A DNA stretch of 9,762 nt from Chroococcidiopsidaceae cyanobacterium CP_BM_RX_35 (GTDB lineage Bacteria; Cyanobacteriota; Cyanobacteriia; Cyanobacteriales; Chroococcidiopsidaceae). Both the position numbers and the translations under genes were made by a program. The stretch lies in assembly GCA_019242465.1 (NCBI GenBank), contig JAFAVL010000809.1, forward strand, positions 1 to 9,762. The letters are read 5' to 3'. The notes under the pieces were generated by a model. That model was not told the origin of the DNA. It saw only the letters and a program-made list of their open reading frames with translations, and did no database searches. Below are positions 1,677 to 9,762 of this stretch, one piece after another; the stretch's first letter is position 1; every line of letters begins with the position of its first letter.

Positions 1677-1772
1677 AGTCCATAAGCGTAGATTAGTTTC
1701 AGTCAAGCCTGTGCCAATTGGTTTTAATAACTACTTGGTTAAGCATTAGAACGGCTAGTCGCCTCTTAGCAA

Positions 1773-1867
1773 TCAAGGCAACGCCTGCGGTAGCTCTGAC
1801 AACTCAGCGTTCCGCTGAAGCTACCCATAGCGGCTACGCCCTTGCAAGCTCAAGAGCGCAAGCTCAA
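1773..1867 (+). repeat. Modular palindromic repeat, copy A (intergenic)
   Basis: The left end (1773-1800) matches copy B in the amidase (7985-8012) at 24 of 28 bases, the first 15 being identical (TCAAGGCAACGCCTG) and all four differences being transitions. The right end TCAAGAGCGCAAGCTCAA (1850-1867) is identical to 8055-8072. The middle differs: it contains nested inverted repeats GGTAGCT/AGCTACC around TCAGCG-TTC-CGCTGA. The terminal motif GCAAGCTCAA occurs twice (1844-1853 and 1858-1867). Orientation is given relative to copy B. No transposase is nearby, so any mobility would have to be supplied in trans. Confidence 0.8.
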
Positions 1868-5124: not shown

Positions 5125-5242
5125 AGACACTACTTCTTTATATTTTGCAACAAGTAGCTTCCAGTAAACAGAGGTCAACCGTAAAAGTTTTGTATAGTTG
5201 ACGACTAGATTATGTATTTTCTCCCCCTGTTCTCTTCTCTCA

Positions 5243-5348
5243 CGAAGTTCCGAGCTTCCTTCGGAAGAGCTAACGCCTGCGGCTTCGCTTCGCTAACGCG
5301 AACGGAGGGAGCCTCCGCTCGGACTTTGCGCTCCGAGCTTGACTTCGC
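5243..5348 (-). repeat. Modular palindromic repeat, copy C (gcvH-gcvP gap)
   Basis: A dense cluster of short inverted repeats begins two bases after the gcvH stop. Outer arms are CGAAGT (5243-5248) and ACTTCG (5343-5348). Inner hairpins are CTTCC-TTC-GGAAG (5256-5268), CGGAGG-GAG-CCTCCG (5303-5317) and CTCGGA/TCCGAG (5318-5323 and 5332-5337). GCTAACGC occurs twice (5269-5276 and 5292-5299). It shares AACGCCTGCGG (5272-5282) with copy A and the hairpin tip GAGGGAGCCTC (5305-5315) with copy B (8027-8037). Such GC-rich stems between cistrons can stabilise or process the upstream mRNA and change the ratio of gene products; that role is inferred here. The strand is tentative. Confidence 0.75.
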
Positions 5349-5349
5349 G

Positions 5350-5736
5350 CTACTCCCCTTCTACCTGTGCCTGATACTCATCTGCAGATAGAACATCATC
5401 CAAATCATGGTCTTTAACGCGCACCTTGATCAACCACCCCTCACCGTAGGGGTCCTCTGCTAGCTGCTCTGGCGACTCCATCATTGCCTCATTGCGCTCT
5501 ACCACTGTACCAGTCACTGCTGAGTTGAGGTCTTCAACTGCTTTCACTGATTCAACCGTGCCAAAGCTTTCACCCTTAGTTACCGTATCGCCAACTTCTG
5601 GCAGCTCTAGAAACACAATGTCGCCCAGTTGGTCAACGGCAAAAGCGCTGATGCCAAGCGTGGCAATTTCACCTTCTAGCCGCACATACTCGTGAGAATC
5701 GAGATATTTCAGGTCACTCGGATATTCTAAAGACAT
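5350..5736 (-). CDS. gcvH: Glycine cleavage system H protein (lipoyl carrier)
   Basis: H protein, 128 residues, the usual family length. It is the mobile carrier of the system: its lipoyl-lysine arm takes the aminomethyl group from GcvP, presents it to GcvT, and is reoxidised by the L-protein (dihydrolipoamide dehydrogenase). The lipoyl attachment signature [18 protein letters not shown] is present, with Lys65 as the modified residue. The N-terminal HEYVRLEG and C-terminal [12 protein letters not shown] stretches are also typical. The ATG at 5736 has a GAGG Shine-Dalgarno seven bases upstream. It follows gcvT by 35 bases, so the two are almost certainly co-transcribed. The stop codon almost abuts palindromic repeat copy C, which separates it from gcvP. 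Lipoylation would need LipA/LipB or equivalent enzymes from elsewhere in the genome. Confidence 0.97.
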
Positions 5737-7208: not shown

Positions 7209-8702
7209 ATGAATCAAACTGACCTAGCGTTTACCCCCGCACTAGAACAGGTACAGCTAATTCGCCGCCGTGAAGTGTCACCTTTAGAGTTGGTAGAAGT
7301 ATATCTGGAGCGCATCCAGCGTCTAAATGTGCAACTGGGTAGTTACTTTACAGTGATGGCAGAGCAGGCGATCGCAGATGCCAAAGCTAAGACCGAGCAC
7401 CTGGCGATCACCAAAGAGACATCGGAATTACCACCTTTTTTTGGCGTACCTATCTCAGTGAAAGACCTGAATCCAGTTGCTGGTGTGGTTTGTACATATG
7501 GTAGCCAAGTGTTGCGAGAAACAGTTGCTACCGCCGACGACGGTGTGGTGACGCGGATTAAACAGGCTGGGTTCATTATTTTGGGCAAAACAGCTACACC
7601 TGAATTAGGCTCACTGCCCTACACTGAGCCCCCTGGCTTTCCACCAGCTCGTAACCCCTGGAATTTGGAATACACCCCAGGGGGGTCAAGCGGTGGCGCA
7701 GCGGCATCTGTGGCAGCGGGAATGTGTGCAATTGCTCAAGGTTCTGATGGTGGCGGGTCGATTCGCGGTCCAGCTGCCTGTTGTGGTTTGGTAGGAATTA
7801 AACCAAGCCGAGGTCGGGTGTCCTACGCCCCGGTAGGTGAGCGCCTCAGTGGGATGGCTGCGATTGGTCCTTTGGCTCGTACTGTCGCCGATGCAGCGGC
7901 GCTTTTAGATATTATGTCTGGTTACGTCACTGGCGATCCCTACTGGTTGCCAGACCCAAACCCATCATTTCTCGCCGCTGCCACTCAAGGCAACGCCTGT
8001 GGCAGCTCCGGCACGGCGGTTGGGACGAGGGAGCCTCGTCCCAACCGCCTCGAATCAAGAGCGCAAGCTCAAAAACGGAGTCCTTTACGGATTGCCTTTG
8101 TCACTGCACTGCCACCTTTGGGCGCAGCTGCACCTATATGTCAGCAAGCCGTACACCAGACTGTGCAGCTGTTGTCAGAACTAGGTCATATGGTTGAAGA
8201 AGTTGATTGTCTCGATCTCACTGATTTGATTGAGCCTTTCACCGCTGTCTGGCAAGCTAGCGTAGCTGTTGCTGAGATTCCAGAGGCATTACTGCAACCA
8301 ATGAATCGTTGGCTGCGCTCGCGAACTGGTTCGGCTAGCGATTATCTACGGGCTGTTGCCCAACTCCAAGTCATAGCAAGACGAATTGTGGCAATTTTTG
8401 ATGCAGTAGACGTGTTGATCCTGCCAACTTACATGCATCAGCCGCTCTTAGTGGGTGAATGGGCAAACTTGAGTCCTGAAGAGACATTAGAGAAAATTAT
8501 CCATTGGATTGCTCCCTGTCCACCGTTCAACGCCAGTGGACAACCTGCAATTGCAATTCCTACTGGTTTTGACACCAACGGGTTACCAATTAGCGTGCAA
8601 CTAGTCGGACGTCCGGCGGCTGAAGCCACACTGATTGCTCTAGCAGCTCAAATAGAAGCTGCGAAACCTTGGAACAGCAAGAGACCAATTTTGGCGCTAT
8701 AA
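7209..8702 (+). CDS. Amidase-signature family hydrolase with an in-frame repeat-derived insert
   Basis: Amidase-signature enzyme, 497 residues, predicted cytoplasmic, hydrolysing a carboxamide bond in an unknown substrate. The Ser-cisSer-Lys catalytic triad is intact: Lys85 in VPISVKDL, Ser160 in TPGGSSGGAAAS, and nucleophile Ser184 in GSDGGGSIRGPA. Ser160 and Ser184 are 24 residues apart, as in fatty acid amide hydrolase. The family also includes GatA, but there is no gatB or gatC here and a general amidase is more likely. The ATG at 7209 has an in-frame TAA six bases upstream, so it cannot be extended; no good Shine-Dalgarno site is seen. Oddity: residues 261-288 come from palindromic repeat copy B. 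They sit between SFLAAATQ and the strand PLRIAFVTALPPLG, where I would expect only a short loop, and the frame stays open. The phytase-like gene follows 47 bases later on the same strand and may be co-transcribed. Confidence 0.92.
   Translation: MNQTDLAFTPALEQVQLIRRREVSPLELVEVYLERIQRLNVQLGSYFTVMAEQAIADAKAKTEHLAITKETSELPPFFGVPISVKDLNPVAGVVCTYGSQVLRETVATADDGVVTRIKQAGFIILGKTATPELGSLPYTEPPGFPPARNPWNLEYTPGGSSGGAAASVAAGMCAIAQGSDGGGSIRGPAACCGLVGIKPSRGRVSYAPVGERLSGMAAIGPLARTVADAAALLDIMSGYVTGDPYWLPDPNPSFLAAATQGNACGSSGTAVGTREPRPNRLESRAQAQKRSPLRIAFVTALPPLGAAAPICQQAVHQTVQLLSELGHMVEEVDCLDLTDLIEPFTAVWQASVAVAEIPEALLQPMNRWLRSRTGSASDYLRAVAQLQVIARRIVAIFDAVDVLILPTYMHQPLLVGEWANLSPEETLEKIIHWIAPCPPFNASGQPAIAIPTGFDTNGLPISVQLVGRPAAEATLIALAAQIEAAKPWNSKRPILAL
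7368..7375. repeat. HIP1 octamer
   Basis: GCGATCGC, the highly iterated palindrome of many cyanobacterial genomes, inside the amidase gene. It helps place the organism. Confidence 0.8.
7985..8072 (+). repeat. Modular palindromic repeat, copy B (inside the amidase gene)
   Basis: The left end (7985-8012) and right end TCAAGAGCGCAAGCTCAA (8055-8072) match copy A. The core is a perfect inverted repeat with 16-base arms (8015-8030 and 8034-8049) and a GAG loop. CTCAA at 7984-7988 and 8068-8072 forms direct repeats 84 bases apart, exactly 28 codons, so the element is read through as residues 261-288 (GNACGSSGTAVGTREPRPNR then LESRAQAQ). Low-complexity, polar and proline/arginine-rich coding is what one expects from a recruited repeat, not from the amidase fold. 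Confidence 0.85.
8015..8049. repeat. Perfect 16-base inverted repeat (hairpin core of copy B)
   Basis: GGCGGTTGGGACGAGG pairs perfectly with CCTCGTCCCAACCGCC across the three-base loop GAG. In the amidase mRNA this would be a very stable stem in the middle of the coding region. The tip GAGGGAGCCTC is shared with copy C. Confidence 0.9.
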
Positions 8703-8749: not shown

Positions 8750-9762
8750 ATGAGTAAATACAGATCTATTTTAGTGTTATTGCTAAGCCTCATCGCGCTT
8801 TCTATCTTCAGCACATCCTGCGCCTACCCAGCACTTGCACGAGATCGCGTGTTTCTTGACCTATCTCTAGACTTTTTAGGAGAGTACAGGCTGCCAAATC
8901 CGCATTTGGACACGCCAGTCGAAGGATTGACAGCAATCACCTATGACCGACAGCGCGATCGCTTCTATGCTTTGAGTGATGACGCTAGCCAATTTGCCCC
9001 GGCTCGATTCTACACCCTTAAACTGACCCTAAATGCTGCTGATACCGAAAAAATCGGTATTCAGAAAGTTGATGTAGAGTCTGTCACTTTTCTAACTGAC
9101 AAAGATGGCAAAACCTATGCCAAAGGCACTATTGTTCCTGAAGGTATTGCCTTATCTCCCCAACAAACCGTATTTATTTCCACTGGCATCACCCCATCTA
9201 TACAAGAATTCGATCTAACTACTGGGAAGCTGCTCAGTAGCCTACCCATACCAGAGCGCTATCTACCTGATGCTGCCAATGAGGCTGAACGTACCAGAGG
9301 TGTTCAAGACGCCAATACATTTGCTTCCTTAACCCTGAATCCTACTGGTACCATCCCTGCCAGTGGGGAACCGATTCGCTTATTTACTGCTACTAAATCT
9401 GCTTTGGTGCAAGATCGAGAGCCACCTAATTCAGAACTGGGAGCCAAATCTCGTTTCTTGCACTACTTAATCGGCTATGGACCACCTGTCCTGATTGCCG
9501 AGCATCTCTATCTAATAGAGCCTCCTAATGAGGCAGCAAAAGGCTTGGTAGAATTATTAGCTTTAGATCAAGGCGGTCACTTCCTCAGTTTAGAGCGCTC
9601 TAAAGGTCGTTCGGGCTTCGATATTCAGTTGTTTCAAATGACAACTGGTGGGGCAACTGATACATCTAGAATTGACAGTCTCAAGGGTTCACTCAACGTT
9701 CCGCCGGAGGCAGCTCCGGCGGCTGCGTTGAGCAAGCTCAATGGCATTCGACCAGTCAAGAA
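8750..9762 (+). CDS. Exported phytase-like esterase-family protein (3' end cut off)
   Basis: The first 337 codons are present; the gene runs past the right edge. The N-terminus MSKYRSILVLLLSLIALSIF is a clear Sec signal. Cleavage after YPALA (near residue 30) would give a periplasmic or secreted protein; Cys24 in STSC could instead be a weak lipobox. The mature part reads like the cyanobacterial 'esterase-like activity of phytase' family (Phytase-like domain), a beta-propeller-type fold: PVEGLTAITYDRQRDRFYALSDD (about 56-78; the EGLTA...YALSDD pattern is the family hallmark), GTIVPEGIALSP, FISTGITPSIQEFDLTTGKL and LEHHLFL-like AEHLYLIEP later on. The substrate is unknown and true phytase activity is not implied. 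The ATG at 8750 is backed by AGGAGG. Residues 316-330 appear to be a 15-codon insert from repeat copy D. It may share a transcript with the amidase. Confidence 0.82.
   Translation, partial: MSKYRSILVLLLSLIALSIFSTSCAYPALARDRVFLDLSLDFLGEYRLPNPHLDTPVEGLTAITYDRQRDRFYALSDDASQFAPARFYTLKLTLNAADTEKIGIQKVDVESVTFLTDKDGKTYAKGTIVPEGIALSPQQTVFISTGITPSIQEFDLTTGKLLSSLPIPERYLPDAANEAERTRGVQDANTFASLTLNPTGTIPASGEPIRLFTATKSALVQDREPPNSELGAKSRFLHYLIGYGPPVLIAEHLYLIEPPNEAAKGLVELLALDQGGHFLSLERSKGRSGFDIQLFQMTTGGATDTSRIDSLKGSLNVPPEAAPAAALSKLNGIRPVK
8955..8962. repeat. HIP1 octamer
   Basis: Second GCGATCGC in the window, in the early part of the phytase-like gene. Two copies in under 10 kb fits a cyanobacterium. Confidence 0.8.
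9692..9741 (+). repeat. Modular palindromic repeat, copy D (inside the phytase-like gene)
   Basis: A nested inverted repeat: outer arms CTCAACG (9692-9698) and CGTTGAG (9726-9732), inner arms CCGCCGGAG (9701-9709) and CTCCGGCGG (9714-9722), loop GCAG. It shares GGCAGCTCCGGC (9709-9720) with copy B (8001-8012) and the terminal GCAAGCTCAA (9732-9741) with copies A and B. CTCAA at 9692 and 9737 is a direct repeat 45 bases apart, exactly 15 codons. The frame continues through VPPEAAPAAALSKLN into the host protein (GIRPVKK). Confidence 0.75.

Follow-up and report, generated by a model that had tools for sequence, protein, structure and literature searches.

The question raised by this locus is how a palindromic DNA segment came to be read in frame within an enzyme gene, and whether it belongs to that gene at all. 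The DNA analysed here, the window, is a stretch of 9,762 nt from Chroococcidiopsidaceae cyanobacterium CP_BM_RX_35. It is cyanobacterial: its amidase has the best-named homolog in the MAG Chroococcidiopsidaceae CP_BM_ER_R8_30 (85% identity; hereafter the relative). The amidase gene and the parts of its insert are as follows.

7209..8702, forward strand: amidase gene with the inserted element (Pfam PF01425, 497 aa).
7984..8072, forward strand: putatively mobile hairpin repeat in an enlarged form that runs from CTCAA to CTCAA over 89 nt and lengthens the amidase frame by 84 nt net.
7989..8072, forward strand: 84 nt coding for the added residues 261-288 (GNACGSSGTAVGTREPRPNRLESRAQAQ), absent from the 119 best listed homologous proteins and from the 80 best loci.
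8015..8049, forward strand: perfect 16-bp hairpin with a 3-nt loop, nested centrally within the element (inverted repeat 8015-8030/8034-8049).
7984..7988, forward strand: CTCAA left boundary, within the Thr-Gln codons ACT CAA.
8068..8072, forward strand: CTCAA right boundary, from the sequence and unit bounding.

Residues 261-288 (28 aa) are the stop-free reading of the insert in the translated frame; the sequence-only reading had described its 16-base perfect hairpin as translated in this way, and the inverted repeat was confirmed. Both ends of the core profile of the family were matched within 7984-8072, at E values of about 1e-4 and 1e-3, and no Rfam family matched in the window at gathering thresholds. 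We aligned the amidase with 29 homologs and found that the insert is missing from all of them (29/29); among the best 119 of 7994 matched proteins, the 28 insert columns hold one to three residues per homolog, and six in one. The 80 best homologous loci (of 268) all have an insert-free amidase site, and the BLASTN alignment with locus L001 of the relative is broken at 7981 and restarts at 8067. The earlier reading had proposed a dispersed repeat, not native amidase sequence, marked by CTCAA as an 84-nt unit in frame. The net insertion of 84 nt with CTCAA at both ends, the lack of the insert in the homologs examined and the abundance of the repeat in the relative's genome uphold this proposal. 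The comparison with relatives' amidases that it had suggested thus found residues 261-288 lacking throughout these best-matching proteins and loci, no ortholog with the same 28 residues among the homologs examined, and a repeat that is abundant elsewhere, in the relative's genome.

The alignment of the amidase with 3a2p, a solved amidase-family enzyme, paired query residues 8-256 and 292-495 with chain residues 7-249 and 257-483, which puts the predicted position of the 28-residue insert in a short link joining two conserved blocks. An AlphaFold2 model of the amidase (alignment A1) was discarded for placing the insert, with a mean pLDDT of 40.9 and a pTM of 0.39. K85, S160 and S184, which we take to be the Lys-Ser-Ser catalytic residues of the amidase signature, show no variation across 30 aligned sequences (the query and 29 homologs); judged from sequence, this is compatible with amidase activity but no proof of it. 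We infer that host proteins with inserts still work. In Nostoc sp. JL33 (locus L070 10001-12153), the amidase match spans 2153 nt, compared with about 1390-1400 nt in most others, so that some 760 nt may have been inserted there independently.

The window contains two further copies of the repeat.

9692..9741, forward strand: second in-frame copy, a 45-nt unit from CTCAA to CTCAA adding 15 residues (LKGS-LNVPPEAAPAAALSK-LNGI), found by profile search.
8750..9760, forward strand: phytase-like gene (Pfam PF13449), cut by the window end, carrying the second copy.
1772..1867, forward strand: intergenic composite copy with a unit of 91 nt, not a multiple of three, found by repeat match, profile and unit bounding.

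Two of the three copies are therefore in frame within genes, and both are missing from locus L001 of the relative; the third is intergenic. The earlier reading had matched both ends of the amidase element to the intergenic copy ending at 1867: the right-end match of 18/18 bases held, whereas the left-end match was 23/28 in the register used, not 24/28. The copy at 9692-9741 had not been noticed there, nor had the 45-nt core, the probable CTCAA target or the mostly genic copies in the relative described below. The 15 insert columns of the phytase-like protein are filled in 0/119 of the best listed homologs, a few of which are shorter proteins, the SL[KQ]G motif being present in 102/119. Where the window reads SLKGS-LNVPPEAAPAAALSK-LNGI, SLKGx-LN stands in 17 of the 24 closest homologs displayed (counted by eye). 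Of the 102 homologs, 21 continue with the dipeptide Leu-Asn and 4 with Leu-Lys, so that a CTCAA-compatible dipeptide is common near the window and not universal; locus L001 has PRS at the site, without CTCAA.

We surveyed the family in the relative's 5.5-Mb genome (G001), which is a MAG and not the window's own genome. The results showed 67 sites for the 17-base right-end motif at up to two mismatches, compared with 1 for the reversed-pattern control, and 20 sites for the left-end motif at up to three mismatches, compared with 0 for the control. Seven hits in a 472-kb sample extrapolate to some 82 copies in 5.5 Mb; this figure is too low, because the sample consisted of 40 regions taken by contig number with five copy-bearing contigs (C5, C24, C26, C28, C38) left out. 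A further 60 regions of this genome were picked for repeat matches, and one (L169) was dropped as a repeat of another (L117). At one mismatch, any match was found in 4/19 genomes of the family and in 4/388 sampled from the order, and matching genomes other than that of the relative have one or two sites each. The repeat is thus nearly limited to one Chroococcidiopsidaceae-like lineage. The 19-base end motif had no exact match in viral contigs, and the 50-nt core had no match in plasmids.

The copies share the consensus CTCAAGG-N-TTCGCCGGAGG-NN-GCTCCGGCGA-CTCAAGAGCGCAAG-CTCAA, that is, a 45-nt unit plus one CTCAA. Tandem copies lie exactly 45 nt apart at two loci (L097, L101), and the bounded units in genes measure 45 nt in 27 cases and 90 nt in six, with one each of 36, 84, 93, 126, 135 and 177 nt. 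The element ends are direct CTCAA repeats, almost constant across copies, and CTCAA or a near match stands at the borders of nearly every copy. Compensatory changes support the central hairpin, which has 14 cells changed on both sides, compared with 5.3 in shuffles (0/500 as high) and with 3-9 in slid versions of the hairpin. Its pairs with compensatory changes (4 vs 2.5, 68/500 shuffles as high) and its pair types (52/500 as high) are within chance. The small right hairpin is paired in 79.5% of cells and shows no changes on both sides.

A copy counted as genic if the open frame around it was 150 aa or longer and extended 15 codons or more to either side. Such frames hold 44/67 (66%) of the clusters in the DNA of the relative that was examined; they make up 81% of the 472-kb sample, and all 7 sample hits are inside them. 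Pfam matched 37 of the 40 ORFs scanned (of 41 distinct ones with copies; two long ones were cropped), and the host families include NRPS, histidine kinases, PrmA (two paralogs), Cas1, Tex, LytR-CpsA-Psr, lumazine synthase, GH57 and FUSC. Most inserts are between domains or in tails, and about eight are inside a domain span (coordinates read by eye). The empty sites were found in other genomes: the net gain is 14 residues in PrmA and 15 in most alignments of Tex, each with the insert in 0/18 other family genomes, and 14 residues in LytR (18 found) and 19 in RibH, including four further residues, each with the insert in 0/16 other genomes. In two PrmA-family ORFs of the relative (L117 1472-1521, L137 3034-3083), the copy is within the first 70 residues, and in a cas1 ORF of this genome (L182 449-493) an in-frame copy falls within the stretch matched to the Cas1 domain.

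All 38 bounded genic copies of the relative are multiples of three, compared with 9/21 of the others (Fisher p 2.6e-7), a contrast that describes survivors only, because the genic class itself requires an open frame and any insert that broke the frame would fall outside it. With the window copies added, the counts are 39/39 vs 10/23, and 27/33 of the 45-nt units are genic; the window copy at 9692-9741 was tallied as non-genic here only because the contig ends. From the 45 gene clusters, four without a bounded unit (the second of L122, L139, L144 and the second of L146) and two that were mis-bounded with the right end alone matched (L089, L103) were omitted, as were two without a bounded unit (L136, L148) from the 25 other clusters. 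In the relative, 27/32 of the 45-nt units are genic, whereas the share is 0/7 for stop-bearing units of 47-49 nt (p 5e-5), the seven having been chosen by eye (L119, L121, L125, L126, L132, L133, L134; L119 is outside the 67 clusters).

The 25 exact 50-nt genic cores comprise 13 in sense phase 2 (translated, for example, as QGxAxGSSGDSRAQAQ), 9 in sense phase 0 (for example LKGSPExAPATQERKL), 0 in sense phase 1 and 3 in antisense. This is a sense excess of 22 vs 3 (expected 0.66 sense, p 0.012). All 44 genic clusters comprise 36 sense and 8 antisense, some of the latter being partial matches only. Perhaps the antisense peptide is less tolerated, or the mechanism itself causes the shortfall. 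The lack of sense phase 1 is weak evidence, with P 0.11 for 22 copies and 0.028 for 35. On the sense strand of 288 ORFs, CTCAA occurs 281, 101 and 341 times in phases 0, 1 and 2; together with freedom from stops, these frequencies predict shares of 0.44, 0.10 and 0.46, and the observed 9, 0 and 13 are close to them.

CTCAA also stands at sites that the element has not entered. In insert-free loci, it is found exactly at the junction codon pair of the amidase in 10/80, and exactly at the junction in 3/14 for Tex (14 located of 18), in 5/14 for LytR (14 located of 16) and in 2/16 for RibH; at the PrmA site, it was found in 0/16 relatives inspected by eye. Some insert-free relatives thus already have CTCAA at four of these five sites (amidase, Tex, LytR and RibH, not PrmA), which makes it the probable insertion target. 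Binomial values calculated over the relatives assume independence, which relatives do not have.

The relative's genome gave 11 Y1 matches, and it contains two copies, 90.6% identical, of one IS200/IS605 element that has both TnpA and TnpB. The TnpA-side end of this element stops right after ...TTTGCTCAA, with the tip GCTCAA, and the flanks diverge at that point, so the end pentamer is CTCAA, the same as the end of the repeat. The opposite IS end is unlike the repeat, and the GCTCAA tip is the sole common end. The 13 TnpA loci compared across the order include these copies (L220, L229) and seven loci without such a tip. Among 11 related TnpA loci in other genomes, GCTCAA is comparably placed, as judged by eye, in three (L222, L224, L230) and GCTCAC in one (L225). 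The tip comes shortly past the tnpA stop in these three loci as well as in both copies of the relative, and the loci with this arrangement may form a TTGAG-targeting subfamily. No Y1 gene is flanked by the repeat in the 1.6-3.4 kb around each of the 11 Y1 matches, and only two of these surroundings hold a copy, 0.7 and 1.1 kb away. Because a resident IS200/IS605 element ends at the CTCAA pentamer, a Y1 transposase is suggested as the mover; a TTGAG-recognising enzyme may be resident in this genome, and Y1 is the likely candidate.

The repeat is dispersed, it has been inserted in frame into genes, and the corresponding sites are empty in relatives. We consider it probable that the amidase insert is a lineage-specific non-autonomous mobile repeat with CTCAA as its target, moved in trans by a Y1 transposase, and within this explanation the role of CTCAA is well supported. 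The core would be the 45-nt unit, in which a GC-rich hairpin is followed by a small one, GAGC-GCAA-GCTC, and CTCAA closes the unit. It would enter beside an existing CTCAA (TTGAG on the other strand), leaving CTCAA on either side of the copy, and would add 45 nt net, or 84-177 nt when further palindromes or units are nested. Genic CTCAA is mostly in two sense codon phases that would leave the element open; because the unit is a multiple of three and open in these usual phases, the gene would be lengthened by about 15-59 residues, usually in a linker, tail or loop, and not killed. The presumed enzyme would be a TTGAG-specific Y1 transposase of the IS200/IS605 type.

A more specific version, which we put forward tentatively, is that the 45-nt lineage is adapted to life within protein genes, where translated linkers and loops serve it as safe sites, while its 47-49-nt stop-bearing sister is restricted to intergenic DNA, both being moved by a TTGAG-specific Y1 transposase. 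If true, it would be the smallest known element to spread while being translated. Rather unlikely in our judgement is spread of the same family without any transposase, by template switching or recombination via the hairpins and CTCAA or through an RNA intermediate, a route once suggested for very small cyanobacterial repeats. Such spread would suit a unit of just 45 nt, a hairpin with compensatory changes, the tandem 45-nt duplications and the nested forms; the CTCAA or near match that bounds nearly all copies, and the resident IS200/IS605 element with the same tip, point instead to an enzyme. The sense excess of 22 vs 3, which an RNA route could give, is also explicable by selection on the protein. 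Selection could act further and make host benefit the driver of spread, the added segments being adaptive linkers; the phase-2 translation QGxAxGSSGDSRAQAQ does resemble a flexible linker, and many inserts are between domains. This is very improbable in view of the absence of both genic window copies from locus L001, the many unrelated kinds of host genes and a phase use that tracks CTCAA frequency, as expected of tolerated rather than selected insertions. Although the window is a single record without reads and the relative's genome is a MAG, loss of a native amidase sequence in relatives or an assembly artefact is hardly credible: the same family is at many sites of another assembly, the second window copy is filled in 0/119 listed homologs, and the amidase insert is lacking in 29 aligned homologs, in the 80 best loci (of 268) and in the 119 best listed proteins (of 7994), on which grounds native origin was rejected.

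Returning to the mobile repeat favoured here, its nearest counterpart in behaviour is the Rickettsia palindromic element. In PMC10969869 and PMC2229807, these are dispersed palindromic repeats lying in frame in many unrelated genes and also between genes, with in-frame fusions and a tolerated effect on one enzyme; their size is 105-146 bp (PMC2229807) or about 150 bp (PMC10969869), and a related report from Wolbachia is an entry among the references of PMC2229807. The earlier reading had named them as the precedent, and here too a dispersed palindromic repeat has entered unrelated protein genes in frame. The size and host differ: Rickettsia elements of about 105-150 bp have a long stem-loop and terminal inverted repeats, whereas here the unit is 45 nt with a short internal hairpin, direct CTCAA ends and nested forms, and the host is a cyanobacterium, as are the closest named relatives. 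The element is closest to this group in behaviour and is set apart from it by size and host.

In proposed mechanism, REPINs are nearest, sharing a small hairpin DNA and a proposed Y1 mover in trans. REPs are extragenic and stand beside a RAYT gene, and an IS200/IS605-like Y1 transposase is proposed to move them in trans (PMC3116915). Unlike them, most copies examined here are inside open frames, and no flanked Y1 gene was found in the 1.6-3.4 kb surroundings. The Correia elements of Neisseria (PMC2229807), which have 107-bp and 155-bp forms, possess terminal inverted repeats and carry TA at either end; one size class is fused within reading frames and the other, stop-bearing, is almost only intergenic. 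The division between translatable 45-nt units (27/32 genic) and stop-bearing 47-49-nt units (0/7) is similar, but compared by description, Correia elements are longer, and the present ones are short and bounded by CTCAA. A classical MITE has terminal inverted repeats and a variable target duplication, whereas here the CTCAA ends are direct and near-constant. The small dispersed repeats (SDRs) of Nostoc punctiforme, of 21-27 nt, are said to be very small, hairpin-forming, nested and mobile, and by description the present element resembles them as a very small, hairpin-forming, nested cyanobacterial repeat. To our knowledge, SDRs were never described as in-frame protein insertions. The SDR work of Elhai et al. 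2008 is mentioned in PMC3116915 and PMC6513891.

A literature search, whose coverage leaves out most subscription papers, found no report of in-frame repeats in cyanobacterial proteins, and PMC10969869 and PMC2229807 describe an in-frame repeat spread through many proteins above all for Rickettsia. Here the host is a cyanobacterium, the unit is about one third the size of a Rickettsia palindromic element, and there are a probable target pentamer, empty sites in many relatives and a candidate transposase, so that the spread of elements within genes without killing them becomes directly testable. Repeat insertion of this kind is one route by which proteins gain new segments.

The intergenic region between gcvP and gcvH (5228-5350) contains a GC-rich inverted-repeat block that is longer than the matching stretch of locus L001. 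It does not have the element ends and has AACGCCTGCGG in common with the element family.
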